64,000 bases of DNA, taken from positions 1 through 64,000 of the forward strand of contig JAQBRV010000003.1 of assembly GCA_028286285.1 (NCBI GenBank). Direction: 5' to 3'. Below, piece after piece: positions 1,880-39,772 of this stretch (within the stretch, counting starts at the first letter, position 1; each line of letters starts with the position of its first letter). Below the pieces are notes generated by a model. The model was not told where the DNA came from, made no database searches, and saw nothing but the letters and a program-made list of their open reading frames with translations. The translations under genes were made by a program, and so were the position numbers. The stretch is from Candidatus Saccharimonadota bacterium. GTDB lineage: Bacteria; Patescibacteriota; Saccharimonadia; Saccharimonadales; Saccharimonadaceae.

Positions 1880-1910
1880 TTGTCATAAATTATATCGTAT
1901 GTGATATAAT
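1880..1910 (+). promoter_or_regulatory. murA promoter (leaderless type)
   Basis: TTGTCA (1880-1885) and TATAAT (1905-1910), spacer 19 nt. The -10 box overlaps an upstream ATG at 1909. The next in-frame ATG at 1918 is 7 nt after the box, where transcription should begin, so the mRNA would be leaderless and 1918 is the better start. Confidence 0.7.
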
Positions 1911-1917
1911 GGACTTC

Positions 1918-3444
1918 ATGGCGAATGAAGATTACAAGCTCAAGATTGGTAAATTAATCCAGGAAACTCGCACCAGTCAGGGTCATACCCAGGCCTATCT
2001 GGCCGACAAGCTTGGCACCTCTCAGAGTGCTATCAACCGTATTGAAAAAGGTGGACAAAACATCAGTCTCGAGATGCTGGCGCGTATTAGCGACGTCCTG
2101 TCGACAAACATCGTGACACTCAATCAAAACGGGAGGATCAATTTCAAAGTACATGGTGGCAAAAAGCTCAGCGGCAGTATTGAGGTAAAGACCAGCAAGA
2201 ACGCCGCAGTTGGCCTGCTGTGTGCAGCGCTGCTTAATAAAGGTAAGACGACGCTCAAGCGCGTCGCTCGTATCGAAGAAGTGAACCGCATCATTGAGGT
2301 GCTCAATAGCATCGGCGTCAAGACTCGTTGGCTTGATAACAACGATCTCGAAATTATCCCTCCTGCCCGACTCAAACTTGAGGCTATGGACATCAAGGCC
2401 GCCAAACGTACTCGCACCGTCATCATGTTCCTCGGTCCACTACTCCACCAATATAAAGAGTTTAAACTGCCCTTCGCCGGCGGCTGTGATCTCGGCACCC
2501 GCACGGTTGAGCCTCATATGACTGGTCTGTCGGCTTTTGGGTTAACGGTCAAAGCCACTAATGATTACTATTACGCCACGTCGCACAAGCAGACGGTAGA
2601 TCGAGTGATTCTGTTGACCGAACGTGGCGATACCGTGACCGAAAATGTCATTATGGCGGCCGCACTGCACGAAGGCACGACAGTTATCCGTAATGCCAGC
2701 CCGAACTATATGGTACAAGACGTCTGTTACTTCCTCCGCAAACTCGGCGTTAAAGTCGAAGGAATCGGCACGACGACGTTGACTATTACTGGTCTCCACA
2801 CGATCAATAAAGATGTCGAATATTACCCCAGTGAAGACCCTATCGAAGCAATGAGTTTCATCGCCGCCGCTGCCGTGACCGATTCCGAACTCACTATCAC
2901 CCGCGTGCCAATTGAATTCGTCGAAATCGAGCTTGCCGTCCTAGAGGGCATGGGGCTCGAATACACTACTGGCAAAGAGTACTTGGCACGTAATGGCGCC
3001 ACACGACTCGTTGATCTGACCATCAAACCATCACGACTAACTGCCGCGAAAGACAAGCTTCACAGCATGCCATTTCCAGGAGTCAATATGGATAATCTTC
3101 CCTTTCTTGGTCTGATTGCCACTGTTGCCAAAGGCCGCACACTGGTGCACGACTGGTCCTACGAGAACCGTGCAATTTACTTCACCGAACTTTCCAAACT
3201 CAACGCCCGGATCGAGCTGGTTGACACCCACCGCGTCTATATTTCTGGTCCAACCAAGTGGAAACCCGCCGACTTGATTGCCCCCCCTGCCCTCCGACCA
3301 TCGGTAGTCATTCTGTTGGCGATGCTCGCCGCACCAGGCACGTCTATCCTGCGTGACGTCTACTCGATTAACCGCGGCTACGAAGATTTTTCCAATCGAC
3401 TCAACTCAATCGGCGCCGAGATCGAAACCGTCCAAGAAATCTAA
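1918..3444 (+). CDS. murA: UDP-N-acetylglucosamine 1-carboxyvinyltransferase with N-terminal XRE-type HTH domain
   Basis: First committed step of peptidoglycan synthesis: enolpyruvyl transfer from PEP to UDP-GlcNAc. Residues about 75-508 are a complete EPSP-synthase-fold MurA. The substrate-binding Lys-Asn pair (SKNAA, about 94-95) and the PEP-binding Cys in the loop AGGCDLGTRTVEPH (Cys at about 190) are both retained. Fused in front, residues 5-68 form a Cro/C1-type helix-turn-helix (GKLIQETRTSQGHTQAYLA, then TSQSAINRIEKG), a domain E. coli MurA (419 aa) lacks. The start at 1918 is chosen because 1909 lies inside the -10 box. The HTH suggests DNA binding, perhaps autoregulation, but that is inference. 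No other cell-wall gene is adjacent; murT-gatD are 9 kb away. Confidence 0.93.
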   Translation: MANEDYKLKIGKLIQETRTSQGHTQAYLADKLGTSQSAINRIEKGGQNISLEMLARISDVLSTNIVTLNQNGRINFKVHGGKKLSGSIEVKTSKNAAVGLLCAALLNKGKTTLKRVARIEEVNRIIEVLNSIGVKTRWLDNNDLEIIPPARLKLEAMDIKAAKRTRTVIMFLGPLLHQYKEFKLPFAGGCDLGTRTVEPHMTGLSAFGLTVKATNDYYYATSHKQTVDRVILLTERGDTVTENVIMAAALHEGTTVIRNASPNYMVQDVCYFLRKLGVKVEGIGTTTLTITGLHTINKDVEYYPSEDPIEAMSFIAAAAVTDSELTITRVPIEFVEIELAVLEGMGLEYTTGKEYLARNGATRLVDLTIKPSRLTAAKDKLHSMPFPGVNMDNLPFLGLIATVAKGRTLVHDWSYENRAIYFTELSKLNARIELVDTHRVYISGPTKWKPADLIAPPALRPSVVILLAMLAAPGTSILRDVYSINRGYEDFSNRLNSIGAEIETVQEI

Positions 3445-3499: not shown

Positions 3500-3577
3500 G
3501 GCGGATGTAGCTCATCTGGTTAGAGCGTCGGGTTGTGGTTCCGAAGGTAGTGGGTTCAATCCCCATCATTCGCCCCA
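3500..3577 (+). tRNA. tRNA-His (GTG)
   Basis: Cloverleaf with 7-bp acceptor GCGGATG/CATTCGC, anticodon loop TTGTGGT (anticodon GTG), T-arm GTGGG-TTCAATC-CCCAT and encoded CCA. The extra G at 3500 pairs with C73, the G-1 identity element of tRNA-His. A TACTAT -10-like box lies at 3476-3481. Confidence 0.95.
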
Positions 3578-3580
3578 TAG

Positions 3581-3610
3581 AAAAAACCGGTCATAGTGAC
3601 CGGTTTTTTC
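3581..3610 (+). terminator. Terminator after tRNA-His
   Basis: AAAAAACCGGTCA-TAG-TGACCGGTTTTTT: a perfect stem with T-tail starting 3 nt after the CCA end. It forms the centre of a much longer imperfect inverted repeat (see 3611-3767). Confidence 0.9.
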
Positions 3611-3767
3611 CTATGGGCTATATAGATCGGGTTGAACCCGCTACTCGGCAGCTTTAGCTGGCGATAGTAGTGGGTTCGCAAAGTGCAGCGAAATTCTGGG
3701 AAAGCTGGCTTTCACCAGAATGAGCAAACGGAGGAGTCCTGACTCGTCGGGACGATATCCCCATCAT
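3611..3767. repeat. tRNA-His-derived composite repeat (antisense 3' half plus split direct copy)
   Basis: Bases 3611-3644 are an imperfect reverse complement of the tRNA-His T-arm and acceptor strand (3547-3580), so tRNA 3' half, terminator and this copy make one long inverted repeat. A direct copy follows in two pieces. GTAGTGGGTTC (3667-3677) matches the 5' side of the T-arm and ATCCCCATCAT (3757-3767) matches the 3' side. A 79-nt insert that itself folds (ATTCTGG/CCAGAAT stem) separates them. The break falls in the T-loop. No protein-coding sense was seen here. Confidence 0.65.
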
Positions 3768-3770
3768 CCA

Positions 3771-4106
3771 TTATGAATACGGATTAAATCCACGAGTTGG
3801 TGGCTCTTTGAAGTTCTGAGGTGGTGGGGCAGGGGCGTCTGAGACTGCATTCTGCTGTTGGCGCGAAGGATCAGGTGATTGAGAGTTTTCGGGTGTAACT
3901 GGACGCTGCGGTGACGTAATCCGCCCCCTATCGCCACCAAAGTTTGCCCCCAGAAGTGAATGGCGATAGCCCTTGATGATACGCCGCTGCTGCTCTATCT
4001 TTCGTCGCTCAGTATATGACTGAGCCGCTGGAGCAGTATCGCCTGCTAACCCACTGCTGTGCAAAGGCGTGCCGTCGGGATCGTTTACAAAGCTACTTAC
4101 TTTCAT
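3771..4106 (-). CDS. Hypothetical small soluble protein, Pro/Gln-rich C-terminus
   Basis: 111 residues, no signal peptide or membrane segment. The middle is basic (YTERRKIEQQRRIIKGYRH, possibly helical). The C-terminal half is a low-complexity Pro/Gln/Ser-rich tail ending in RGFNPYS. A TATAAT box at 4119-4124 lies 12 nt before the ATG on this strand, which supports a real transcription unit. I do not recognise the family. A similar basic-helix plus disordered-tail layout occurs in small CPR proteins of unknown role, but no function can be inferred. It sits between tRNA-His and tRNA-Gly, and its stop abuts the tRNA-His-derived repeat. Confidence 0.6.
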   Translation of the reverse strand: MKVSSFVNDPDGTPLHSSGLAGDTAPAAQSYTERRKIEQQRRIIKGYRHSLLGANFGGDRGRITSPQRPVTPENSQSPDPSRQQQNAVSDAPAPPPQNFKEPPTRGFNPYS

Positions 4107-4184
4107 AGTTATGCTTTTATTATAACATCGACGAAGCGAGAAGAGCGATGAGTGACAATACTCGTTTTATACGGTAAAAACTGG

Positions 4185-4190
4185 TATAAT
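4185..4190 (+). promoter_or_regulatory. tRNA-Gly -10 box
   Basis: TATAAT ending 11 nt before the tRNA-Gly 5' end. Confidence 0.7.
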
Positions 4191-4201
4191 CTGTAAAGTC
4201 C

Positions 4202-4276
4202 GCGGGCGTCGTATAATGGCTAATATGTCTGCCTTCCAAGCAAACGATGAGAGTTCGATTCTCTCCGCCCGCACCA
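4202..4276 (+). tRNA. tRNA-Gly (TCC)
   Basis: Acceptor GCGGGCG/CGCCCGC, anticodon loop CTTCCAA (anticodon TCC), T-arm GAGAG-TTCGATT-CTCTC, encoded CCA. The anticodon stem has one weak C-A position. Confidence 0.93.
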
Positions 4277-4312
4277 AATAAAACAGCTCAGCTTACCTGG
4301 GCTTTTTTATTT
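4277..4312 (+). terminator. Terminator after tRNA-Gly
   Basis: AAATAAAACAGC pairs with GCTTTTTTATTT around a short loop, with a run of six T. It begins directly at the CCA end. Confidence 0.8.
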
Positions 4313-4377
4313 GGTATGAGTTGGGTAGAGCAAGCTCTCATTAGCAGAGCAAGGCGATCGCCTTCTCTCTCCGCCCA
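4309..4377. repeat. tRNA-Gly-derived composite repeat
   Basis: Bases 4309-4342 are an imperfect reverse complement of the tRNA-Gly 3' half (rev-comp reads ATGAGAG, then a short divergent stretch, then ACTCATACCAAAT). Bases 4363-4376 repeat the 3' T-arm strand and acceptor in direct orientation (TTCTCTCTCCGCCC). Between them lies the palindrome AAGGCGATCGCCTT. Same order as the units after tRNA-His and tRNA-Arg. Confidence 0.6.
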
Positions 4378-4414
4378 TACAATAATACTGCTTATGTATA
4401 AACGGATATTTTGA

Positions 4415-4510
4415 TATAATCTAAAATGTTCTTCAGCGAACTAACCAAGGCCGTAGGGATAACCATACGGTCTCGTTCATTCACAATTTGAGAGATTAGA
4501 GGAAGAAGCT
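4415..4510 (+). promoter_or_regulatory. Promoter and structured leader of the SGNH hydrolase gene
   Basis: TATAAT at 4415-4420, then an 80-nt leader with a hairpin (CCGTA 4451-4455 / TACGG 4466-4470) and an AGAGGAAGAAG Shine-Dalgarno before the ATG at 4511. The leader contrasts with the leaderless genes around it. Confidence 0.6.
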
Positions 4511-6058
4511 ATGAAATCTACACGCCGCTGGGTGCTTACATTGTCCTTTCTGGTATCGCTGACGGTATTGTCGACTAAAGCCAATGCTATTTCAGACTTC
4601 GACGATAATGTGCGGACGGCACCCGACTTCGACATGGCCTGTGCTGGGAGTAGCCAAACGGAGGACTGGGAGGAGACCTGGTTCTCTAAGCTCAAGCAGG
4701 CTGAGACTGATCGAAAGCTCACTGATCCGACGTTTGAAACGCCTGCCATGGACTACCACGAGTCACACGACACGAACATCATGCTCGAAATGTGGCCGTC
4801 CACATCGCCCTATGGCGCTGTCACGATGTTCATCGCAAACCCCGAGGCGACACTGAGCTTCGGAGGGCATGGCGCATACACCAAGGGGATGATCTTTCAC
4901 GACCTGACGGATCTGCGAAGAGTAGTGTTGTTCACTAACTCACAGAGCGGCAGCTCGAGCCAGAGCGGCTGTGCACCAATAAACCTTGCCCGTGCAATCG
5001 GCGATGACACCCTTGTGGAAGATGGCGTTATCGTTGGAGGTGGCGGCTCGTTCCAGTCTATGAGTGACGGGAACATTTTCTACCCGAACAATCCCGTCTA
5101 CCAATTCATCAACTTGCCGATCACTTACCCCGTGGACTACGTGGGAGACATCATCCCTACGCACTCCCATTTGATTAAGTATGTTGCCCTAGGTGACTCG
5201 TTTTCAAGCGGCGAGGGCAATCCGCCCTTCGAAACAGGGACAGATAGCACGAACCTGTGTCACCGTAGCGTTCAGAGCTGGCCACGCCTGGTTCAGAAGA
5301 GCCTGAATCTTGGACCCGTCACCTCTAGAGCGTGTTCGGGTGCCGTGACAGACTACATCATCGATAGCTACAACATCGAGAACATTGAGTTGCCGCAAGC
5401 AGCTTACATCTCGGAAGACACGGAGCTTGTCACCATCACTACTGGAGGCAATGACGTGGGATTCGGTGATGTATTGAGAACATGCACGAAGGCATACAAG
5501 CCAGGAGAGAACGAGGAGCTCAGCACGGAGGATCGCCACAACATCGAACATGAAGCCTGCATTAATGCGATAGAGGACGCTCGGCTTACGGCCACAGGGA
5601 TAGCATTCCAGGAGGAGCTTGAGGATGTCTTCTCGGGTCTACGCGATCTCGGAAGTTCGAGTCTTCAGGTGGTTGTCGCGGGTTATCCGAACCTCTTTCC
5701 TGCTTATGTGAACATTGTGGGCACGTGCAAGTGGGAAGGCGACTGGGTTACCAACGCTATCAACGAAACCTCAGGTCGTAACGTTGCAAGTGATGAGATC
5801 ACGAAGGCGCGCCTGCTTCACGACGAGCTCAACGGTGTGATTGAAGATGCGGTCGACGCGACCAACGACAGCAACATTCACTTCGTGGATCCGTCGGCTA
5901 CATTTGCAGGACATGAGCTTTGTCGTCCCAACCCCTGGTTCCACGGCGTCGTCTCGTCGATCGACGAGACAGAGCAGGCGATGTCCTATCACCCGAACTC
6001 TGACGGACAAGCAGCATACGCATCTGTCCTAGAATCGGAGATTGACGGCCTGTTGTAG
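4511..6058 (+). CDS. Secreted SGNH/GDSL-family hydrolase
   Basis: 515 residues with a classical Sec signal peptide (basic MKSTRR, hydrophobic core, cleavage after TKANA, about residue 26). A roughly 190-residue N-terminal region of unknown fold is followed by an SGNH esterase/lipase domain. Block I is GDSFSSGEG (nucleophile Ser about 230), block III GGNDVGF (Gly313, Asn314), and the catalytic His about 494 is in YHPNSDG. The usual Asp three residues before the His is absent (AMSYH), as in Ser-His dyad esterases of Streptomyces type. Several Cys could form disulfides outside the cell. Many codons end in C or G compared with neighbours, and the architecture resembles actinobacterial secreted lipases. 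That fits transfer from an actinobacterial host, but this is inference. The substrate is unknown. Confidence 0.85.
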   Translation: MKSTRRWVLTLSFLVSLTVLSTKANAISDFDDNVRTAPDFDMACAGSSQTEDWEETWFSKLKQAETDRKLTDPTFETPAMDYHESHDTNIMLEMWPSTSPYGAVTMFIANPEATLSFGGHGAYTKGMIFHDLTDLRRVVLFTNSQSGSSSQSGCAPINLARAIGDDTLVEDGVIVGGGGSFQSMSDGNIFYPNNPVYQFINLPITYPVDYVGDIIPTHSHLIKYVALGDSFSSGEGNPPFETGTDSTNLCHRSVQSWPRLVQKSLNLGPVTSRACSGAVTDYIIDSYNIENIELPQAAYISEDTELVTITTGGNDVGFGDVLRTCTKAYKPGENEELSTEDRHNIEHEACINAIEDARLTATGIAFQEELEDVFSGLRDLGSSSLQVVVAGYPNLFPAYVNIVGTCKWEGDWVTNAINETSGRNVASDEITKARLLHDELNGVIEDAVDATNDSNIHFVDPSATFAGHELCRPNPWFHGVVSSIDETEQAMSYHPNSDGQAAYASVLESEIDGLL

Positions 6059-6084
6059 CGGGTAGCGACATGCTGAAGAGCACT

Positions 6085-6108
6085 GCCCCGTACGATTCTG
6101 TGCGGGGC
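6085..6108 (+). terminator. Terminator after the SGNH hydrolase gene
   Basis: GCCCCG/CGGGGC stem with 12-nt loop. The T-tail is weak (ATCTTCATGTT). Confidence 0.55.
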
Positions 6109-6118
6109 ATCTTCATGT

Positions 6119-6124
6119 TATACT
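6119..6124 (+). promoter_or_regulatory. -10 box, leaderless type
   Basis: TATACT, 8 nt before the ATG at 6133. Confidence 0.65.
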
Positions 6125-6132
6125 AATAACAT

Positions 6133-6330
6133 ATGGAACCATTCATGAGTGGAGGCGACCTACTAGAGGGCCTCATCAAATTATTTGCCCCTCCCTTCTT
6201 ATTGATTTGTATTGCAGTCGCTGCATTCGCTTATTATGTGAGTGTCGGGAAAAAGAGATTAGGGATCGTCTTAGGTGTAGTATTTGTTCTTGCGGCGGGT
6301 GCCTATTTCGGATCATTCTTCTTAAATTAA
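6133..6330 (+). CDS. Small two-TM membrane protein
   Basis: 65 residues with two hydrophobic segments (about 14-35 and 43-63) separated by a short positive loop (SVGKKRLG), predicting a hairpin with the loop in the cytoplasm. A TATACT box 8 nt upstream of the ATG and no Shine-Dalgarno predict a leaderless mRNA, the same layout as many certain genes here. No family recognised. It is convergent with the ATP-grasp gene downstream. Confidence 0.55.
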   Translation: MEPFMSGGDLLEGLIKLFAPPFLLICIAVAAFAYYVSVGKKRLGIVLGVVFVLAAGAYFGSFFLN

Positions 6331-6368
6331 AAGTTTCGAAGTGTGTTGGCGAAGAACGCCAAAATCTC

Positions 6369-7148
6369 TTATTCCATCATCGCATCAATAATGCGCGCAT
6401 AAACCATTTCAGCTCGCTGCTTATTCTCGGGCGAGAAGCGCGCATAGTACTCCATCATAATACTGTCGTTGATTTCTAGTACCTGGCTCTCACCCGCCCT
6501 ATTCTCGACGATGTCGATGGTTGAAAGCCGCAGGCCAAGCTCTTTTTGAGCGCTAACTGCTAATTGCAACAGATCGTCATTGATTTCAATATCCTTTGGT
6601 GTTGCACCGAGCCCAAGATTGAACATGTTAAGCCCACGAATCATGACCGGTTGTTTCTCGTATATAAGTAGCGGCATGCTGTCCAGTAAGACCACACGAA
6701 TCTCCCGTGCAATGTCGATAAATGGCGCTGCTGCCCATGCGGCGATGGGAGATTGTTCAATATGAGCGACGGCCGCGTCAATATCATTAAACAGATGCAC
6801 GCCGTGGCCGCTAGTGCCGACGAGAGGCTTAATCACGACCTGCTGCCAGCCGTTCATGACATGCCGATCGGCGTGTGACACTTTGGTTCGAACCAACACA
6901 TGCGGCACTACCGGAATTCTAGCCTTCGCAAGCACTTGGTAGGTCGCGACTTTGTCTTGAGCGATACTAGCAGACACGGAATCATTCAGATCAAAACGAT
7001 AGCCAAATACCCAGTGGACTGCATCTTTAGACGTCATTTCGATCAACCAATCATCAGAGTAAACATCAAACGAAATGCCACGCTCGGCGCATATATCACG
7101 CAGCATCTGCACCATCCACCTGTCGACAATATATTCTCCATCTAACAT
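6369..7148 (-). CDS. RimK-like ATP-grasp ligase
   Basis: 259 residues with the ATP-grasp layout of the RimK/glutathione-synthetase group. Landmarks are a pre-grasp helix with DKVATYQVLAKARIPVVPHV, the nucleotide-binding lysine strand QQVVIKPLVGTSGHGVH, REIRVVLLD, and a C-terminal metal-binding strand QVLEINDSIMMEYY. These enzymes activate a carboxylate as acyl-phosphate and join it to an amine, often adding amino acids to a protein or peptide. The usual RimK N-terminal domain is shortened. A TAGAAT box 6 nt before the ATG (7155-7160) predicts a leaderless transcript. The substrate cannot be deduced, and it is unlinked to the RimK island at 40-44 kb. Sequence differs clearly from that RimK. 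Confidence 0.75.
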   Translation of the reverse strand: MLDGEYIVDRWMVQMLRDICAERGISFDVYSDDWLIEMTSKDAVHWVFGYRFDLNDSVSASIAQDKVATYQVLAKARIPVVPHVLVRTKVSHADRHVMNGWQQVVIKPLVGTSGHGVHLFNDIDAAVAHIEQSPIAAWAAAPFIDIAREIRVVLLDSMPLLIYEKQPVMIRGLNMFNLGLGATPKDIEINDDLLQLAVSAQKELGLRLSTIDIVENRAGESQVLEINDSIMMEYYARFSPENKQRAEMVYARIIDAMME

Positions 7149-7154
7149 TACATT

Positions 7155-7160
7155 ATTCTA
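7155..7160 (-). promoter_or_regulatory. -10 box, leaderless type
   Basis: TAGAAT on the minus strand, 6 nt before the ATG at 7148. It lies back-to-back with the tRNA-Arg promoter. Confidence 0.6.
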
Positions 7161-7176
7161 TCACTGATAGATTAGG

Positions 7177-7182
7177 TATAAT
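7177..7182 (+). promoter_or_regulatory. tRNA-Arg -10 box
   Basis: TATAAT ending 9 nt before the tRNA-Arg 5' end. Confidence 0.7.
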
Positions 7183-7191
7183 AGAAACTAC

Positions 7192-7267
7192 GCCCCGGTA
7201 GCTCAGTGGATAGAGCAAGAGACTTCTAAGCTTTTGGCCGCTAGTTCGATTCTAGCCCGGGGTACCA
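7192..7267 (+). tRNA. tRNA-Arg (TCT)
   Basis: Acceptor GCCCCGG/CCGGGGT (terminal G-U), anticodon loop CTTCTAA (anticodon TCT), T-arm GCTAG-TTCGATT-CTAGC, encoded CCA. The anticodon stem closes with an A-G mismatch, which is slightly unusual. Confidence 0.9.
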
Positions 7268-7307
7268 TAATAAGAACGCGTCCTTCTGGGCGTGTTTTTA
7301 TTATTAT
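7267..7307 (+). terminator. Terminator after tRNA-Arg
   Basis: ATAATAAGAACGCG pairs with CGTGTTTTTATTAT around a 10-nt loop, with a T-run in the descending arm. Confidence 0.8.
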
Positions 7308-7419
7308 GCTGGGCTGGATTGAACTAGCGGGTTTTGCAAAACAAAACAAACCGCTAGTTCGTGAAGCGACTAGAAGGAGCGGAAACAGGGAGCCGAGCGA
7401 CCACCCTCTAGCCCGGGGT
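7308..7419. repeat. tRNA-Arg-derived composite repeat (antisense 3' half plus split direct copy)
   Basis: Bases 7308-7330 are an imperfect reverse complement of the tRNA-Arg T-arm/acceptor strand. After a GTTTTGCAAAAC palindrome comes a direct copy in two pieces: CCGCTAGTTCG (7351-7361) and TCTAGCCCGGGGT (7407-7419). Both pieces are identical to the tRNA and are separated by a 45-nt purine-rich insert. The break is at the T-loop, as in the tRNA-His unit. The insert shares a GAGC-R-AAAC-GGAG-like core with the tRNA-His insert. Confidence 0.65.
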
Positions 7420-7456
7420 CATCACAATTATGCTTTTTACAATGACGATATTGCAT

Positions 7457-7462
7457 TATAGT
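7457..7462 (+). promoter_or_regulatory. purM -10 box, leaderless type
   Basis: TATAGT 6 nt before the ATG at 7469. Confidence 0.55.
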
Positions 7463-7468
7463 TAATTT

Positions 7469-8638
7469 ATGACAGAACTATCTCGCGAAAAACCAGAAGA
7501 TATAAATATTAAAGCTGGCGACGATGCTTCGAAATCATTTTACGAAGCGGCAAAGCTAACATACTCAAATCAACCTGATGTGCTTAGAGAAGAGTTTAGC
7601 TCGTTTTCAGGCCTTAGATCTATGAATTTTAGAAAATTAGGCTGGGGTGTTAGAGGGGGTCAAGAATCTGATGGTATCGGAACAAAAGTAGAGATTGCGG
7701 AACGTGTGGGTCGTCACGACACAATCGCTTTTGATCTAATGGCTATGATATGTGACGATGCTGCTATACGGGGCGGTGAGTCCTTGCTTGTACAAACTGT
7801 CCTGGACGTTAATACACTCGGAAAATCAACAGATCCAGAAGCACTTCAAGAATACATACATAGGTCAATGGGTGAAATAGCTACCGGCTATGCCGCAGCA
7901 GCTAATGCGGCAGGCGTCGTAATATCGGGTGGTGAGACTGCAGAATTAGGAGATAGAGTTGGTGGCTACGGTCCGTTCAACTACAACTGGGGCGGAACAG
8001 CCCTATGGGCTGGTCGTAGAAGTAGACTAATAACTGGGAAGAAGCTTCGACCTGGCGATACCCTTATTGGATTTGCCGAGCATGGATTTCGGTCCAATGG
8101 TATTACGAATGTTCGTCAAGCTATGCTTGAGAAGTATGGCGATGACTGGCATAACGTCGTCGACAGATCGCTCGGTGATATCGCACTCGGCGAACTGGCA
8201 CTTGAACCCTCCACTGTATATTCTGGTTTCATGACCAAACTAACCGGCGGCTACCGCAGAAAACAAAAACCACTTGCCAAAATCCATGCTGCTGCTCACA
8301 TTACTGGTGGTGGCCAGCCAAGTAAGATCGGGAGAATGCTTGAACCAACCGGTCTCGGTGTGGAGATTACAAATCCAATTGCACCGCCAAATATTATGCT
8401 TAAAATGCAGGAAATAAATGGATATGATGATCGTACAGCGTATGGAAAGTGGCATATGGGACCGGGTATGGTGATTGCTACTCCAGAACCAGACGCTATT
8501 CTTGAAGCTGCCCAACACTATGGAAATGGTATAGAGTTGTACGTGATTGGTCGAGCTACAGAAAAGCCAGGCATAAGAACAATTAATGTAGGTGCTGGTC
8601 AGGATAGTCGCTGGTTAGAATTTAACCCAGCAGTATAG
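7469..8638 (+). CDS. purM: AIR-synthetase (PurM)-like protein
   Basis: 389 residues of the PurM/ThiL/HypE fold. The PurM signatures ESDGIGTKVE (nucleotide/phosphate loop) and VISGGETAELGD are clear, followed by GDTLIGFAEHGFRSNG and the C-terminal GGGQPSKIGRM region. The classical enzyme closes formylglycinamidine ribonucleotide to aminoimidazole ribonucleotide with ATP in purine synthesis. No other purine gene is in the window and most members of this phylum lack the pathway, so its role here may be salvage-linked or altered. Codons look A/T-richer than neighbours, and it lies directly behind the tRNA-Arg repeat, a typical acquisition site. E. coli PurM is 345 aa; the extra length is at the N-terminus and within loops. 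Confidence 0.8.
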   Translation: MTELSREKPEDINIKAGDDASKSFYEAAKLTYSNQPDVLREEFSSFSGLRSMNFRKLGWGVRGGQESDGIGTKVEIAERVGRHDTIAFDLMAMICDDAAIRGGESLLVQTVLDVNTLGKSTDPEALQEYIHRSMGEIATGYAAAANAAGVVISGGETAELGDRVGGYGPFNYNWGGTALWAGRRSRLITGKKLRPGDTLIGFAEHGFRSNGITNVRQAMLEKYGDDWHNVVDRSLGDIALGELALEPSTVYSGFMTKLTGGYRRKQKPLAKIHAAAHITGGGQPSKIGRMLEPTGLGVEITNPIAPPNIMLKMQEINGYDDRTAYGKWHMGPGMVIATPEPDAILEAAQHYGNGIELYVIGRATEKPGIRTINVGAGQDSRWLEFNPAV

Positions 8639-8719
8639 TTCCGATCTCACGCAACCTGGTACACAAGACAAAAATGATGAATCATTGTACTTATCTTTTT
8701 TCTTTCCCGCCAAATGATA

Positions 8720-8725
8720 TATACT
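8720..8725 (+). promoter_or_regulatory. -10 box of the EEP-family gene
   Basis: TATACT ending 11 nt before the ATG at 8737. It argues against an upstream ATG at 8674, which would lie before the promoter. Confidence 0.6.
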
Positions 8726-8736
8726 CAAACGCAACC

Positions 8737-9513
8737 ATGGCTACTCCATCACCCGAGCAATCACCGACAACCCGACGGGCAGCTGTGTGGAATATATTCC
8801 TCGATAAACATTACCTGCAGGATGAACGCCTTCCATCCATCATAGAGACCCTTCGCGAGCAGGGCGAGTTTGATGTCGTCGGCATCGTCGAGGCTGGTCA
8901 GGGCAATGGCGAGAAAATAGCCCAAGCTATCAGCGGCACACCGGGATTATGGTATCCCCACTCACGAAAGAAACTAGGTGAACATATCGGCCTATTCGGT
9001 CCGACTATTGAACCAGCCGAGAAGATCGAGCTGGGCTATAACAGACGGGCGGTTGTAACGCGCCTGGGCGACGTCGCGATAACCGCGGTTCACCTGCGTC
9101 GTCCGGATGAGTGGTACCGTTCTGGCCCAGAACAAGTAGAACAAGCGCAGGCTCTGATCGACTATTTTGCAGACGAAGAAAAAGTTATTCTCTTTGGTGA
9201 CTTCAACGGGGTGCGTGCTCAAAAGCCACGTCGGATGCTCAAAGCTGCCGATTATGAACTCGCGACAACTCAATTGGGTCGGCGACCGGTCAGATCATTT
9301 CCGACCGATGAATTTCCCGAAAGACTCAGTCGCCGTGAACAGCTATTGTTGCGGCTCGTTGGCGGGATGATAAGTATCGATGCTATCTACACGAAGGGTG
9401 TCGACGTTATCGATACCGATAGCTTCGGTGGACCAAGTGATCATCGTGGCCTTTGGTTGGAATGGTTAGAATGTGTTGATGAAATGAATGAGGAGCAGGA
9501 TACCCTTAATTAG
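8737..9513 (+). CDS. Endonuclease/exonuclease/phosphatase (EEP)-family hydrolase
   Basis: 258 residues from the chosen start (behind the TATACT box). EEP landmarks appear in order: AVWNIFLDK (Asn), VVGIVEAGQG (metal-binding Glu), AVHLRRPDEWY, LFGDFNGV (Asp/Asn pair) and a C-terminal GGPSDHRGL (Asp-His pair). These residues form the Mg-dependent active site shared by exonuclease III, DNase I and inositol or sphingolipid phosphatases. No signal peptide, so cytosolic. The substrate (DNA, RNA or a phosphoester) is not decidable. It ends 8 nt inside the convergent Clp gene. Confidence 0.8.
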   Translation: MATPSPEQSPTTRRAAVWNIFLDKHYLQDERLPSIIETLREQGEFDVVGIVEAGQGNGEKIAQAISGTPGLWYPHSRKKLGEHIGLFGPTIEPAEKIELGYNRRAVVTRLGDVAITAVHLRRPDEWYRSGPEQVEQAQALIDYFADEEKVILFGDFNGVRAQKPRRMLKAADYELATTQLGRRPVRSFPTDEFPERLSRREQLLLRLVGGMISIDAIYTKGVDVIDTDSFGGPSDHRGLWLEWLECVDEMNEEQDTLN

Positions 9514-11980
9514 AAGGTGTTTCTTGGCTGTTTTCAGGAGACGCCTCAATCGGGTCTTGGGCAGCGTCAGCCGTGATCGCCTGAGCTTGACTTTCGGTGC
9601 CGAGAATCTGCTGTACTTGCTCGAGGCTAATCTCGATCGTGCTGCCCGCCGAGGCCCTGCCTTGGAGCATTTGCGTGGCCACCGTGTTCTCGACCGCCCG
9701 TTGTACGACGCGGCGCATCGGCCGAGCACCAAGCCGTGGATCGTAGCCCTTTTCTACCAAGAATAGTTTGGCGTCCTGGGAAACCGTGACGCTGACTTTC
9801 TGAGTGGCCAGGGTTTTATTGACACCCTTCAAGATAAGATCAACAACTTGTAGCAATTCGCTTTTACCGAGCGGCTGAAAAGTAACGATTTCATCAAACC
9901 TGTTTAAAAATTCTGGACGAAACTGATTGCTGGTAATAAGTTCGTCGACAAACTGCTGCTCGAACTGTTGTAGCTTGTAGCCGCGGTCGATGTATTCCCG
10001 AATCCGGTCAGCTCCAGCATTGCTCGTGGCAATAACGATAGTGTCGCGAAAGCTAATCTCACGGTTTTTAATGTCACGTAGGATGCCTTCGTCGAGCAGC
10101 TGCAGGAGCGTCGTCATAACATTAGGATGCGCCTTTTCAATCTCATCGAGCAGCACCACGCTAAACGGCTGCTTCATGGCTCGTGCTGTCAGACTCGACG
10201 GATCATCGGCACCATCAGCAATCAACCGCACCACATCTTCATTGCGCACGAACTCGTTCATATCCAATCGAATCATGCGGTCTTCGCCGCCAAAGTAGAC
10301 ATCGGCGACTGCCTTAGCCAGCTCGGTCTTGCCTACACCAGTTGGGCCAAGAAACAGGAAAGTACCGATCGGGCGGTTTTGGTTGCGTACACCAGCCCGA
10401 GCACGGCGCAGGGCATCACTCACCACCTGCACTGCCCGCGTTTGATTGATCATACGCTCATGGATCAGTGACTCGAGATTGAGCAGTGTATCTTTCTCCT
10501 GCTCTCCAGTCGCTACACCCACTTTGATATCCATAGTCTGCTCAATGGCACTCTGCACCGAATTCATCGTTACCAGCCCATTCTGACTGTAATTGGCAGC
10601 TGATTCGAGTAACTTCAACGCGCGGCCTGGCATCGCCAGATCATGCACGTAGCGCTCGCTCAGATTGTACGCCTCCCCTAGCGCTTGATACGTATAGGTC
10701 ACCTTTTTCTGAAACTCTGTCACGATGAGCTGGTCTTGCATGACGGTGATGGTCTCAGCTCGAGTGGCAGGCTTTATCATAATGCGATTGAGCGCATTGG
10801 TCAGCGCCGGATTGCGCTGAGAAATCTGTAGATAGCGCTGCTCGTCCATCGTCAGGATGACACGCAGGTTACCGGCTTCCAAAATCGGGAGCAGCACATT
10901 ACCGAGATCGACCGAACCGATTCCCTCTTCGAAAAACAGTTGGGCGTTATCAAGGCAGAGAATGATGTTCTTGGCACTATAGGCCTCGCCCAGTACCTGC
11001 ATGATCAGATTTTCCAGTTCTCCACGACCTGGCGCTGCCGCCACGAGTGAGGCTGCATCAAGAATAAATACCTGGCGAAAACGCAGGCTCTCTGGTAGCT
11101 TTTGCGTGGCATCGAGGAGCCTTTTAGCAAACGCATGAACGATAGTCGTCTTCCCAACACCGGTTGGCCCGACGAGCACCGCGTTTTGTCGACCGCCTGA
11201 GCCGAAAGTATCGATAAGCTGATCAACAGCATCGACGTGCGCTTCCAGATCAACTGTCAATAGGCCACCGCGCTCACTAATATTCTGTCCAAACCGACCA
11301 AGCAGCGGTATGTAGCCAAATGAGAAATCACGGGCGATACCGCCGGTTCGTCCTGGTGTCGTATGGGTAGCAATGAGCTGTTCTAGATGATCTTGCCAGC
11401 GGATGCCATTCATCAGGTCATCCATTTCAAGGTGGAGATGTGCCAGGACGCCATCTCGCTCCGGAAAACTCTTCACCAACGCCGCTACAAGTACCCCGGC
11501 GGTTATTTCGTTGACCCTAGTTTGTTCTCGTATCTCTAGGGCAAGCCGCCAGATACCGACGGTATCGTCGGGACTTTCCGAAGCGATATCTTGCAAAAAA
11601 CTAGCGGTCATACCAAAACGAGCGCCGAAGAACTGACCGCCAAACACACGCCCGACCGCCAGAGCAATGCTTTTAGGCGTTGGATGCTCGGCTAATTGAG
11701 CCAGAATATCTCCCGCTAGCACATCACTAATATTTTGTGGTTTCTTACTCGTTGGCAGTTTTTTGAGTTCACCTCGGTACCATTCCATGCAAATCGCTGG
11801 CAGTGCTGCCAATCCGAGCACCAGCCACCCGATCGAAAAGCCAGCTATCACAAAGATGACACCGCTGAGTGCAAGAACGATCGCGCTGACATTCAGCAGC
11901 TTACCGATGATCCCACCGAGTACGCCACCGACCCGAGCTTTGGAGGCTCGGTCGTGATGATATTGAAATACTACGTCCAT
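9506..11980 (-). CDS. Membrane-anchored Clp/HSP100-type AAA+ ATPase
   Basis: 824 residues. Residues about 28-66 form two hydrophobic segments. Residues about 85-200 resemble a divergent Clp N-terminal repeat region. Then come two AAA+ modules: Walker A GPTGVGKTT (about 269) with Walker B ILCLDNAQ, and Walker A GPTGVGKTE (about 545) with canonical Walker B VVLLDEIEKAH, followed by a ClpB-type C-terminal domain (ARPMRRVVQRAVE). The first Walker B has Asn in place of the catalytic Glu, so module 1 may bind but not hydrolyse ATP. A Clp tethered to the membrane by its N-terminus probably unfolds membrane or secreted clients. No ClpP gene is in the window. Overlaps the upstream membrane gene by 10 nt (translational coupling). 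Confidence 0.85.
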   Translation of the reverse strand: MDVVFQYHHDRASKARVGGVLGGIIGKLLNVSAIVLALSGVIFVIAGFSIGWLVLGLAALPAICMEWYRGELKKLPTSKKPQNISDVLAGDILAQLAEHPTPKSIALAVGRVFGGQFFGARFGMTASFLQDIASESPDDTVGIWRLALEIREQTRVNEITAGVLVAALVKSFPERDGVLAHLHLEMDDLMNGIRWQDHLEQLIATHTTPGRTGGIARDFSFGYIPLLGRFGQNISERGGLLTVDLEAHVDAVDQLIDTFGSGGRQNAVLVGPTGVGKTTIVHAFAKRLLDATQKLPESLRFRQVFILDAASLVAAAPGRGELENLIMQVLGEAYSAKNIILCLDNAQLFFEEGIGSVDLGNVLLPILEAGNLRVILTMDEQRYLQISQRNPALTNALNRIMIKPATRAETITVMQDQLIVTEFQKKVTYTYQALGEAYNLSERYVHDLAMPGRALKLLESAANYSQNGLVTMNSVQSAIEQTMDIKVGVATGEQEKDTLLNLESLIHERMINQTRAVQVVSDALRRARAGVRNQNRPIGTFLFLGPTGVGKTELAKAVADVYFGGEDRMIRLDMNEFVRNEDVVRLIADGADDPSSLTARAMKQPFSVVLLDEIEKAHPNVMTTLLQLLDEGILRDIKNREISFRDTIVIATSNAGADRIREYIDRGYKLQQFEQQFVDELITSNQFRPEFLNRFDEIVTFQPLGKSELLQVVDLILKGVNKTLATQKVSVTVSQDAKLFLVEKGYDPRLGARPMRRVVQRAVENTVATQMLQGRASAGSTIEISLEQVQQILGTESQAQAITADAAQDPIEASPENSQETPSN

Positions 11981-12357
11981 GAAACTGGTGTCCAGCCGCT
12001 AATAAATAGCAAAAAACCAACAAAAGGGAACAGCGGTATAAATGCCCATACAACCAGCGTTACCACGCCCAACAAACAATGAAGAAAGATAGTGACGCAG
12101 CCAATTGCGATGATGACGATTCGCACCAAGGCACCGATAACTCGCGAGATCGTCCGATCGATGAATGCACGCCACTTGACCCCTATTGAGCCGTTTACTT
12201 TACCTGCTGATATTTGGCGAAAAGGTGAAAAAAGTGTCTTTAGCAGCAGGTTGATCGAAAAGTAGTCAACCGTACGGGCAATTCGCTCTTTTATGAGCTT
12301 CGCCCGCTCTATCCAACCAGCGCTATACCACCACGAGAGCATTCCCACTATAAACAT
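11971..12357 (-). CDS. Small membrane protein coupled to the Clp gene
   Basis: 128 residues from the ATG at 12357, chosen because a TACAAT box (12364-12369) lies 6 nt upstream. A longer frame would run into murT. The N-terminal part is amphipathic and basic (GWIERAKLIKERIARTVDYF, SPFRQISAGKVNG). Two to three hydrophobic segments follow from about residue 68 to the end. Overlaps the Clp start by 10 nt, so the two proteins are likely made together and may act as a membrane complex. No family recognised with certainty. Confidence 0.7.
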   Translation of the reverse strand: MFIVGMLSWWYSAGWIERAKLIKERIARTVDYFSINLLLKTLFSPFRQISAGKVNGSIGVKWRAFIDRTISRVIGALVRIVIIAIGCVTIFLHCLLGVVTLVVWAFIPLFPFVGFLLFISGWTPVSWT

Positions 12358-12363
12358 AGCCTT

Positions 12364-12378
12364 ATTGTACGATATACT
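12364..12378. promoter_or_regulatory. Back-to-back divergent -10 boxes for the Clp operon and murT
   Basis: TACAAT on the minus strand (12364-12369) and TATACT on the plus strand (12373-12378), 3 nt apart. They are 6 and 8 nt from the start codons at 12357 and 12387. Both mRNAs would be leaderless. Confidence 0.65.
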
Positions 12379-12386
12379 AGGTACAT

Positions 12387-13658
12387 ATGCCAAAACCTTA
12401 CACCACTCTACTCGGTAAGACTGTCCGTTCAATTGCTCGCCTACGTGGTGGTGGCTCAGCTCTTCCGGGACTTTTCGTCGAAAAAATAGATCCAACGTTC
12501 GTCGCTGAGGCGCTGGCACAATTGCCCCGCGGCGTTGTTATTATCAGCGGCACCAATGGCAAGACGACAACCACCAAAATGGTAACAGAACTTTTAGAAG
12601 CACAGGGTCTCAAAGTCTTTACCAATCGGACTGGTAGTAACTTCGTTCGCGGCGTGGCGGCTGCCCTGCTCGGCGAGGTCGACATGAAAGGGAAGTTAGA
12701 TGCCGATATCGCCGTGCTTGAGCTCGACGAAGCTCATGCGGTACATTTTGTGCGTACGATTGCCCCCCGTTATAGTTTGCTGCTCAATGTCATGCGCGAC
12801 CAGCTCGATCGTTTTGGTGAGATCGATGCCACCGCAAAGATGCTGTCTGCCATCGCACAGCGCACTACCGAAGGCGTCGTGCTCAACCGCGAAGATCCAC
12901 ATGTCGCCTCACTGGCCGACAAGCTTAAAGATAAAAACGTAGCTTTTTTTGGACTCAATCCGACGCTCAGTCACCTGTTTCCAAGTGATGATGAGCTTCG
13001 GAGCGGATCGAAAAGCGCCAAGATCACCCCTATTGCCGATGTGACGTTAGAAGAATTTTCGGATGATGAAGCAACTTTCAAGATTGATATCACCAAGTAC
13101 ACGACACCTCTCAAACTCCAAGGTGTCTACAACATTTTTAATGCTGCAGCAGCGTTGGCTCTGGTGCGACTCATCGTCGGTGAGGCGTGTGATACCGACA
13201 AGCTGATGGCCTCACTTGCCTCTGTCACGCCAGCGTTTGGACGCGGTGAGCGACTGGTGGTTGGCGGTCAGCCACTCGAACTGGTGCTCGTCAAGAATCC
13301 AGCTGGGTTTCGGCTCGGACTCAGTTCCTTTCCGGCCAGCGACTACGCAACAATGATCGCCATTAATGACAATTATGCTGATGGCCGTGATATGAGCTGG
13401 CTGTGGGATGTTGATTTTGATAGCTTGCACAAAGTCGGCGTCAGCCAAGTAGCCGGCATCCGCGCCTACGACATGGCACTGCGTTTGCAGTACGATGAAG
13501 TGGAAATCTCGCAGGTAGAACCCGACCTCAAAAAAGCCCTTCGCCATTTTATCGCCCAGCATCCTGATACCCCAAAGCGTGTCTATTGTACCTACACCGC
13601 CATGCTGACCTTGCGTCGTGAACTCGCCAAAATTACCGACGTGGAGGTTGTATCATGA
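12387..13658 (+). CDS. murT: Lipid II isoglutaminyl synthase, Mur-ligase-like subunit MurT
   Basis: 423 residues. The central Mur-ligase ATPase has P-loop SGTNGKTTTTKM (about residue 55), ELDEAH, and RDQLDRFGEID. The C-terminal domain is the MurT-type domain (DUF1727). With GatD it amidates the alpha-carboxylate of D-Glu in lipid II to D-isoglutamine, using glutamine-derived ammonia. Gram-positive MurT proteins carry a four-Cys zinc ribbon inside the ligase domain. Here the corresponding stretch (NREDPHVASLADKLKDKNV onward) has no Cys, so the ribbon is missing. The stop overlaps the gatD start (ATGA). Start codon 8 nt after a TATACT box. Confidence is high because of the gatD neighbour. Confidence 0.93.
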   Translation: MPKPYTTLLGKTVRSIARLRGGGSALPGLFVEKIDPTFVAEALAQLPRGVVIISGTNGKTTTTKMVTELLEAQGLKVFTNRTGSNFVRGVAAALLGEVDMKGKLDADIAVLELDEAHAVHFVRTIAPRYSLLLNVMRDQLDRFGEIDATAKMLSAIAQRTTEGVVLNREDPHVASLADKLKDKNVAFFGLNPTLSHLFPSDDELRSGSKSAKITPIADVTLEEFSDDEATFKIDITKYTTPLKLQGVYNIFNAAAALALVRLIVGEACDTDKLMASLASVTPAFGRGERLVVGGQPLELVLVKNPAGFRLGLSSFPASDYATMIAINDNYADGRDMSWLWDVDFDSLHKVGVSQVAGIRAYDMALRLQYDEVEISQVEPDLKKALRHFIAQHPDTPKRVYCTYTAMLTLRRELAKITDVEVVS

Positions 13659-14374
13659 GCCACAATATTCACATCTTGCAGCTCTACCCCAACGATATGA
13701 ATATTTATGGCGACTGGGGCAATGTGCTCACGGTAATGCGGCGATTGCAATGGCACGGCTACAATCCGATTCTGACTGAGTACAACCAAGGTGATACATT
13801 CCCGACTGAAGTCGATATCATCATCGGCGGTGGCGGCCAGGATTCCGGCCAAACGGTTATCCAAGATGACCTGCTCAAAATTAGCACCCACCTACATAAG
13901 CTCGCGGATGATGGCACACCAATGCTGATTATTTGTGGTTTGTACCAGCTATTTGGCAACTTTTTTAAAACACTCGATGGTACGGTCATCAAAGGCATCG
14001 GACTCCTCGATCTTGAGACCCACGGTGGTAATGAACGGCTGATTGGTAATATCATCATCAAAAGTCATGAATTCGGCGAGATCATCGGCTACGAGAATCA
14101 TAGTGGTCAGACGTTCCTGGGTAAAAACGTTGTGCCGCTTGGTCTGGTGCAAAAAGGGGCGGGTAATAACGGTCACGACGCCACCGAAGGTGTGCGCTAT
14201 AAAAACATCGTTGGCAGTTATATGCACGGTTCGCTGCTGCCAAAAAATCCCGCTATCGCTGATTTTCTGATCGAACAAGCGGTCACCCGAAAGTACGGTG
14301 AATTCGTTCCGACGGTCATCGACGATCGCTTCGCCGAACTCGCGCGCGACATCGCCGCCAAGCGCCCTCGTTAA
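13655..14374 (+). CDS. gatD: Lipid II isoglutaminyl synthase, glutaminase subunit GatD
   Basis: 239 residues, class I glutamine amidotransferase of the CobB/CobQ type. The nucleophile Cys94 sits in IICGLYQLFG and the catalytic His about 191 in YMHGSLLPKNP. Both positions match S. aureus GatD (Cys94, His189) almost exactly. It hydrolyses glutamine and passes ammonia to MurT. Overlaps murT by 4 nt, so expression is coupled. Its presence implies that this organism makes amidated peptidoglycan. Confidence 0.95.
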   Translation: MSHNIHILQLYPNDMNIYGDWGNVLTVMRRLQWHGYNPILTEYNQGDTFPTEVDIIIGGGGQDSGQTVIQDDLLKISTHLHKLADDGTPMLIICGLYQLFGNFFKTLDGTVIKGIGLLDLETHGGNERLIGNIIIKSHEFGEIIGYENHSGQTFLGKNVVPLGLVQKGAGNNGHDATEGVRYKNIVGSYMHGSLLPKNPAIADFLIEQAVTRKYGEFVPTVIDDRFAELARDIAAKRPR

Positions 14375-14380
14375 CTCAGC

Positions 14381-14842
14381 TTACGCCTTTTGAAGCTTTT
14401 TGAGTTCTTCGATTACTTGCTCACCGTGACCCAGTGGGGTTACGCGGCCATAAATTTTCATTACCACACCTTCGGGATTAATGATAAATGTCTTTCGTAA
14501 AATTCCTTCTTGGCCGAATATCTTCTTACCCCAGGCACCGTAGGCCTCAATCGTTTTACCATCTGGATCACTCAACAGCGTAAAGTTTAGTGAGTGTTTA
14601 GCCTTGAATTTTTCGTGAGAACTGGCTTCGTCTTTACTGACACCAATAATCTCTGCCCCAAGCTCGGCGATGTCGTCACGAGCATCGCGCAGGCTACAAG
14701 CTTCGACAGTACAGCCCGGCGTGTCATCCTTAGGATAAAAATACAACACCACCCATTTTCCGCGGTAGTCATCAAGCGAATGAGCTGCGCCGTCACTACT
14801 GTTTAACATAAAATTTGGGGCAGGGTAGGGAGGTTGTATCAT
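14381..14842 (-). CDS. bcp: Thioredoxin-dependent peroxiredoxin (Bcp/PrxQ)
   Basis: 153 residues, standard for Bcp. The thioredoxin-like fold has YFYPKDDTPGCTVEACSLRD, giving peroxidatic Cys44 and resolving Cys49 five residues later (atypical 2-Cys PrxQ). It reduces peroxides using thioredoxin. A TACAAT box (14850-14855) lies 7 nt before the ATG. The AGGGG between them could act as a Shine-Dalgarno only if transcription began earlier. Monocistronic, convergent with gatD. Confidence 0.95.
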   Translation of the reverse strand: MIQPPYPAPNFMLNSSDGAAHSLDDYRGKWVVLYFYPKDDTPGCTVEACSLRDARDDIAELGAEIIGVSKDEASSHEKFKAKHSLNFTLLSDPDGKTIEAYGAWGKKIFGQEGILRKTFIINPEGVVMKIYGRVTPLGHGEQVIEELKKLQKA

Positions 14843-14849
14843 ATCCCCT

Positions 14850-14855
14850 ATTGTA
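14850..14855 (-). promoter_or_regulatory. bcp -10 box, leaderless type
   Basis: TACAAT on the minus strand, 7 nt before the ATG at 14842. Confidence 0.55.
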
Positions 14856-14928
14856 CCCTACCTCGGCATGTCGTCGCGCGCATCATCTCGCAGTGACCTC
14901 ACTACTAGAAAAACCAGCCGATATACGC

Positions 14929-14934
14929 TATAAT
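14929..14934 (+). promoter_or_regulatory. Promoter of the tRNA-Pro unit
   Basis: TATAAT 124 nt before tRNA-Pro and 19 nt before a truncated copy of the tRNA 5' end. The primary transcript would carry that copy as a leader. Confidence 0.6.
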
Positions 14935-14952
14935 TCCTCAAGGTAACACCAT

Positions 14953-15057
14953 CGGGGTGTGGCGCAGCTCACATGAGACAAACCTACGGTTTTTCTCATC
15001 GCGCCGAGAACGAAATCAATTCGTTCGTCGGGCTGCTCTTTTCCCTAATGAAATTAC
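14953..15057 (+). repeat. Truncated tRNA-Pro copy and structured leader
   Basis: CGGGGTGTGGCGCAG (14953-14967) is identical to the first 15 nt of tRNA-Pro (15058-15072) and then diverges in the D-loop. The remaining 90 nt contain nested complementarity: GGCGC/GCGCC enclosing ATGAGA/TCTCAT with AAACC/GGTTT, and GAACGAA/TTCGTTC. It looks like an independently folded RNA module. No open reading frame of note. Confidence 0.6.
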
Positions 15058-15134
15058 CGGGGTGTGGCGCAGTTGGCTAGCGCGCGCGGTTTGGGACCGT
15101 GAGGTCGAAGGTTCGAGTCCTTTCACCCCGACCA
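15058..15134 (+). tRNA. tRNA-Pro (TGG)
   Basis: Acceptor CGGGGTG/CACCCCG, anticodon loop TTTGGGA (anticodon TGG) on stem CGCGG/CCGTG, T-loop TTCGAGT, encoded CCA. 77 nt. Confidence 0.95.
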
Positions 15135-15169
15135 AGAAAAAACCTGTCCATTTGGGCAGGTTTTTTCTT
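15135..15169 (+). terminator. Terminator after tRNA-Pro
   Basis: AAGAAAAAACCTGTCC-ATTT-GGGCAGGTTTTTTCTT, a strong stem with T-run, directly after the CCA. Confidence 0.9.
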
Positions 15170-15170
15170 G

Positions 15171-15203
15171 CCCGAGCTGGCTGGACTCTCGAACCTTCGA
15201 CCC
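15171..15203. repeat. Antisense copy of the tRNA-Pro 3' half
   Basis: The reverse complement reads GGGTCGAAGGTTCGAGAGTCC then a diverged acceptor, against GGTCGAAGGTTCGAGTCC in tRNA-Pro. As after the His, Gly and Arg genes, tRNA 3' half, terminator and this copy form one long imperfect inverted repeat. No direct split copy follows here. Confidence 0.65.
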
Positions 15204-15237
15204 AAATTTTGCCAAACAGATCTTAAGTCACATGCAT

Positions 15238-39653: not shown

Positions 39654-39695
39654 AGTATACAAGAAAATACACCCACAAATGTGAGTGTATTTTCT
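39654..39695 (-). terminator. tRNA-Lys terminator overlapping the comEC promoter
   Basis: On the minus strand a long hairpin (AAGAAAATACAC...GTGTATTTTCTT, 39661-39695) begins right after the tRNA CCA. It is directly followed by TATACT (39654-39659), 6 nt before the comEC ATG. The T-run of the terminator forms the spacer region of the promoter. Confidence 0.75.
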
Positions 39696-39772
39696 TGGAG
39701 GGCCCAGTGAGACTTGAACCCACGACACCCTGCTTAAAAGGCAGGTGCTCTAACCAGCTGAGCTATGGGCCC
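39696..39772 (-). tRNA. tRNA-Lys (TTT)
   Basis: Acceptor GGGCCCA/TGGGCCC (one strand TGGGCCC at 39766-39772), anticodon loop CTTTTAA (anticodon TTT), T-loop TTCAAGT, encoded CCA. Unlike the four other tRNA genes, no antisense copy follows its terminator. Confidence 0.95.

Follow-up and report, generated by a model that had tools for sequence, protein, structure and literature searches.

The DNA analysed here, hereafter the window, is a stretch of 64,000 nucleotides (positions 1 to 64,000 of the forward strand of contig JAQBRV010000003.1, assembly GCA_028286285.1) from a Candidatus Saccharimonadota bacterium. It contains five transfer RNA (tRNA) genes, for His, Gly, Arg, Pro and Lys, and was studied together with the whole genome (774 kb, 38 tRNA genes). 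According to a preliminary description, each of these genes except tRNA-Lys is followed, behind a terminator hairpin, by an antisense copy of its own 3' half. This observation proved mostly right, and the antisense copy is one arm of a larger repeat unit, 150-200 bp long and devoid of genes, whose layout is that of the poorly understood RtT repeats of Escherichia coli. In the full cases (tRNA-Asn, -His, -Arg(tct) and -Leu(taa)), the order is tRNA-t-A'-h-X5'-E-X3', where t is the terminator, A' the reverse complement of the T-arm, h a small hairpin, X5' a direct copy of the T-arm 5' half ending in TTCG, E a structured insert of 45-110 nt, and X3' a direct copy of the T-arm 3' half and acceptor, sometimes including CCA.

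Repeat units beside the tRNA genes

Copies were tested by local alignment of the last 38 nt of each tRNA, for both reverse-complement (RC) and direct matches, with 600 windows drawn at random from the genome as the reference (lowest attainable p = 0.0017). All features listed are on the forward (+) strand, except those of tRNA-Lys, and all tRNA genes of the four units are intact as judged by ARAGORN and Rfam. The tRNA-His(GTG) gene (3501..3577; Rfam RF00005, 59 bits) is followed by a terminator-like hairpin t, recognised from sequence (3578..3616), whose stem extends back to the CCA. Then come A' (3629..3644, RC p = 0.0017), h (3645..3664, placed from sequence and fold), X5' (3667..3678, GTAGTGGGTTCG), a type I insert E (3679..3758), and a decayed X3' (3759..3767, CCCCATCAT, direct p = 0.01). 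About 40 nt of this insert are common to the insert found at tRNA-Asn elsewhere in the same genome. The same order is found after tRNA-Arg(TCT) (7192..7267), with t at 7268..7308, A' at 7311..7330 (RC p = 0.0033), h at 7331..7351, X5' at 7352..7361 (CGCTAGTTCG), a short E at the T-loop position (7362..7406), and X3' at 7407..7419 (TCTAGCCCGGGGT, direct p = 0.0017). These two units are complete, but their far end is decayed, and no tandem repetition of units was seen within the window.

The remaining units are reduced. Behind tRNA-Gly(TCC) (4202..4276) and its terminator (4277..4314), a decayed A' and h (4328..4362, AGCGAGCAAAGCGAGCCA) precede an X3' (4363..4376, TTCTCTCTCCGCCC, direct p = 0.023). 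The h resembles that of other Gly units (compared with loci L086 and L131), but the antisense match is chance-like (RC p = 0.75), and for this one tRNA the copy first reported is weak when taken by itself. At tRNA-Pro(TGG) (15058..15134, terminator at 15135..15170), A' and the left arm of h span 15179..15213 (A' core 15179-15202, RC p = 0.0017). The unit beyond that left arm is lost, and A' with the left h arm is also present at the tRNA-Pro of locus L110. The antisense copies are thus upheld for His, Arg and Pro; in the spans initially assigned to them the T-arm part is well matched, while the rest consists of the terminator stem end and a diverged acceptor part. The gene for tRNA-Lys(TTT), which with its terminator occupies 39660..39772 on the reverse (-) strand, has no unit, as first noted (RC p = 1.0, direct p = 0.65 against random windows).

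Beyond the antisense arm, the window holds parts that are missing from the preliminary description, namely direct T-arm copies, structured inserts, and a 5' copy upstream of tRNA-Pro. There, a piece at 14953..15004 begins by repeating the tRNA's first 15 nt in direct orientation (14953-14967; direct p = 0.0017 against random windows, BLAST E-value 0.13) and continues with a hairpin. This hairpin, ATGAGACAAACC..GGTTTTTCTCAT (14968-15004), recurs in reversed orientation 5' of tRNA-Arg(tct) in L086 (~13481-13525), and is possibly another short repeat.

Genome-wide, antisense copies at p<0.01 were found for 9 of the 38 tRNAs, against 0.4 expected. The preliminary description was right in holding that such gene-specific copies are no product of chance. 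Direct copies reached the same threshold at 12 of the 38 tRNAs, again against 0.4 expected, some of the matches being neighbouring tRNA genes (Leu(gag), Thr(tgt)). We recognised the unit anatomy at about 13 of the 38 tRNAs, including, outside the window, Asn, Glu(ctc), Leu(taa), Gln(ttg), Tyr, Arg(gcg) and Ser, and at about 40 tRNAs of other Saccharibacteria. In fresh cases, the direct copies are exact tRNA 3' ends of 17-21 nt. The unit ends with the tRNA 3' tail including CCA at tRNA-Asn and -Leu(taa) of this genome and in many relatives, an end that is decayed in the window. Tandem units occur at L098, L069 and L049. At L098 (3' of tRNA-His, 5100-5400), L163 and L165, the repeats are interrupted by runs of N and by contig ends, so that short-read assemblies probably undercount them.

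Gene specificity of the copies was also borne out. By genome-wide BLAST, the better tRNA-like pieces outside tRNA genes mostly adjoin their own gene. At 57 sites picked by their insert alone, A' was closer to the local tRNA than to its isoacceptor counterparts in other genomes in 53 cases (p = 4e-10), and the direct copy was so in 55 (p = 3e-11). An exact 18-nt copy of the 3' end of tRNA-Glu(ttc) was also seen 1.7 kb from its gene (G000:C4:119504-119521), as an ordinary integrative element leaves. As for the genes near the units, a murA-like gene with an N-terminal helix-turn-helix-like extension, retained in relatives, lies at 1909-3444, and a secreted SGNH-hydrolase-like protein, judged by eye, is encoded at 4511-6058.

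Structure and placement of the insert

Several families of E are present in Saccharibacteria, type II being the best conserved. Aligned from ten loci, type II forms three hairpins within a loop closed by the T-stem, and 20 of its 35 pairs have changed on both sides with pairing kept. No Rfam match to E was obtained: searches of the window and eleven loci, at E-values up to 1, returned only tRNAs and chance matches. A covariance model of type II, R1, found matches in 77 of 295 Saccharimonadia genomes, belonging to 45 of 129 genera, with at least 13 copies in the richest genome. In a 287-genome sample of the phylum, the 8 R1 matches were all in Saccharimonadia. Two units were found in G013, from another order of that class, and no clear unit adjoined the tRNAs sampled from three genomes of other Patescibacteria classes (G302-G304, a small sample).

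The distinct type II sites number 107. Of these, 66 follow a tRNA and 29 precede one, in both groups on the strand of that tRNA, and 1 is on the opposite strand. The other 11 have no intact tRNA nearby, and most of these keep a CCA-t-A'-X5'-E-X3' remnant. In the tRNA copy, E sits at about positions 55/57 (T-loop), at 22-38 (D-arm and anticodon), or at 53-67. Downstream sites carry it in the T-loop. At upstream sites, the copy is of the tRNA 5' part and is longer; E lies in its T-loop, anticodon loop or D-arm, and A' and then the intact tRNA come after it. A separate family of D-loop inserts has the same mirror layout. At L218 (G137:C3:250400-252300), a whole tRNA-Val-like pseudogene with a damaged D-stem carries a type II E in its T-loop.

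In the E stems, G.U mismatches outnumber A.C ones by 40 to 14, counts that come from related sequences and therefore carry no p value, and one G.U pair is conserved in 99 of about 108 sequences. This pattern gives moderate support to the idea that E pairs as an RNA strand.

How the units may arise and move

Comparison of related loci showed that units come and go. In L131, tRNA-His is followed by a unit that has a terminator of its own and a stretch resembling a promoter, and none is found in L086, which is 90% identical. L082 has an extra unit beside tRNA-Gly without counterpart in L078. L073 and L075 (94% identical) have E and X3' in common and differ in t-A'-h. Absence from orthologous tRNAs of close relatives, which the preliminary description named as a refutation, is thus seen at some loci, and the L131/L086 pair indicates a feature that is real, but mobile or patchy rather than conserved in place. 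The closest pairs of E sit at unlike tRNAs, with 97% identity between a Gly and an Arg site in G046, and 94% between genomes; in G061, two Gln genes carry inserts that are 99% alike. Near-identical inserts at different tRNAs, framed by arms that match the local tRNA, indicate that E travels and that the arms do not go with it but are made locally.

We give about even credence to the following account, in which the antisense copies belong to RtT-like units whose insert lodges in a tRNA arm loop and passes from one tRNA gene to another. Each settled E is framed by parts of the adjacent tRNA: ahead of E stands a fresh 3' tail and its terminator, or a fresh 5' half follows it. In both cases one tRNA stays intact, with the invaded arm repeated in inverted orientation (A') in between. 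The insert may be copied in by a trans-acting enzyme or by the host, with the local arms formed at insertion or soon after. Homologous recombination between the repeated 3' tails would then expand and delete units; unit number does change in step with long direct repeats. E is probably transcribed, judging from the annotation of its E. coli version as a small RNA (sRNA). A' would pair with X5', possibly keeping the pseudo-arm from disturbing tRNA processing, and older units would decay, as in the window.

Several points weigh against this account. Within a genus, E similarity averages 79% at the same tRNA against 75% otherwise, so that resemblance partly follows the tRNA and part of the inheritance is vertical. 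No moving enzyme was found, as neither reverse transcriptases nor extra tyrosine recombinases track E: a reverse transcriptase (RVT_1) is present in just 7 of 32 E-rich genomes, and these genomes mostly have one Xer-like recombinase, G154 having none. This co-occurrence test is itself weakened, since a genome that lacks type II may have inserts of another type. R1 and the covariation figures concern type II inserts, and that of the window is type I. The sequences of E differ between families, whose grouping rests partly on position. Lastly, the recurrence of A' in two phyla suggests a working part rather than a by-product.

An RNA regulatory device is an explanation we regard as unlikely, though less so than the two discussed below. 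A' would block the T- or D-arm of the real tRNA, or pair with the E-bearing copy and free the tRNA, while E would sense a signal and set the balance. The three-part order of copy, A' and tRNA fits such a switch, A' follows its own tRNA, the stems of E covary and show the G.U pattern described above, and RtT has its sRNA annotation. In predicted folds, A' pairs with the tRNA when tRNA-His, t and the unit are folded together, and with X5' when the unit is folded alone. This leaves room for the device first proposed, in which read-through transcripts sequester the tRNA 3' end. In the 3' form, however, tRNA and unit have a strong terminator between them, and the G.U excess over A.C in A' (109:41) stems mostly from base composition and two positions, being weak or absent after correction. 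In addition, units are patchy among close relatives and among E. coli strains, decay freely, and hold E in an arm that varies between tRNAs.

Template switching at tRNA terminators, also put forward in the preliminary description, could explain how the arms form. The order A-t-A'-h-A is the one expected from repeated switching at a hairpin, the stem of t abuts the CCA, and tandem copies exist. As a purely mutational scenario, made of switching and tandem slippage with neither element nor function, it is improbable in our view, because it leaves unexplained a conserved, covarying insert at one spot, the sharing of that insert among many tRNAs, the constancy of its strand, and recurrence in two phyla. 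Slightly further down the scale, we consider it quite improbable that the units are attachment-site remnants of ordinary tRNA-using integrative elements, the third of the initial proposals. Fresh direct copies do equal exact 17-21 nt tRNA 3' ends, as attachment sites would, tRNA fragments left by integration are common (PMC9897764), and true gene-bearing elements occur at some of these tRNAs (L069, L073). Yet there are neither genes nor an integrase between the direct repeats of the units, integration produces neither the inverted arm nor the T-arm 5' half, E also occupies the D-arm or the anticodon region and can lie 5' of the tRNA, and the usual single recombinase of E-rich genomes fits poorly. 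Integrase-site remnants are thus unlikely as a full account. The gene-bearing segments just mentioned, L069:3006-6980 (4.1 kb) and L073:7634-9200 (1.75 kb), lie between the tRNA CCA end and an RtT-like unit. They were considered as cassettes of the unit and set aside, because ordinary integrative elements that arrived later are the better reading, and the probable one.

Comparison with known repeats

Integrative elements and phages leave tRNA fragments behind (PMC9897764). These share with the units an exact repeat of the tRNA 3' end beside the gene, and differ from them by the lack of an inverted arm, of a structured insert and of gene-free tandem units of 150-200 bp. Mutations by template switching at quasi-palindromes produce local inverted copies at hairpins, as here, and would bring no conserved insert. 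Repetitive extragenic palindromic sequences and bacterial interspersed mosaic elements (REP/BIME), as well as repeats of the miniature inverted-repeat transposable element (MITE) type, are short, non-coding, structured and without an enzyme of their own, as are the units, but the arms of the latter are copied from the local tRNA and not carried along.

The closest likeness is to the RtT repeats (RF00391, RttR) of the tyrT-tyrV operon, which to our knowledge have so far been regarded as particular to a single E. coli operon. They share the order of tRNA, spacer or terminator, T-arm reverse complement, short loop, T-arm 5' half, insert and CCA tail. The T-arm reverse complement and T-arm 5' half precede the insert at E. 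coli tyrV, tyrT and proK, as they do at the His and Arg units of the window. Exact tRNA 3' tails with CCA and tandem repetition (proK and tyrV in E. coli) are likewise found on both sides, and the position downstream of the tRNA is that of 66 of the 107 type II sites and of the His, Gly, Arg and Pro units. In E. coli too, one insert with gene-specific arms occurs at several tRNAs, namely Tyr and Pro and partly Arg. The RtT insert is found at proK with proline-specific arms, and partially at argV, argZ and argQ; none was found at the other E. coli K-12 tRNAs checked. Of 5426 E. coli genomes, 4711 contain RtT-like sequence, with 1 to 14 occurrences each. At proK, strains 5444, MG1655 and MLI106K1 have 0, 1 and 2 copies of the insert, and a single repeat unit is all that distinguishes the empty state of 5444 from MG1655. 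In E. coli NZ_CP195351.1 (219449-220921, L322), the transposase of IS621 (IS110 family) adjoins the proK repeat region.

The saccharibacterial inserts are unrelated in sequence to that of RtT, and the RF00391 cut-off of 45 bits was not reached in this genome, where the best match (15.8 bits) lies away from tRNAs. The recurrence of this layout in a distant phylum, where many tRNAs carry it with inserts unrelated to that of RtT and with arms matched to the local gene, suggests a shared process that copies tRNA pieces and deposits structured inserts in them. Such a process would mean either a new type of mobile element or an RNA device that acts on tRNAs and is widespread. With somewhat less than even confidence, we propose that a general class of bacterial mobile elements, spread over at least two phyla whose cores are unrelated and having RtT as one member, nests in tRNA arms by means of a short, structured, RNA-like core insert. 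At each landing site, the core would be flanked by new copies of parts of the local tRNA, some direct and some inverted, and one tRNA would stay intact. The natural series of 0, 1 and 2 copies at proK makes the question directly testable in a laboratory organism. We found no description of the unit anatomy in the literature, subscription papers on tyrT being outside the reach of our search. The saccharibacterial units form, as far as we could find, an RtT-like family new for Saccharibacteria, and one more elaborate than in E. coli, with several insert families, many more tRNAs involved, and copies that are also found upstream of tRNAs and in D- and anticodon-arms.

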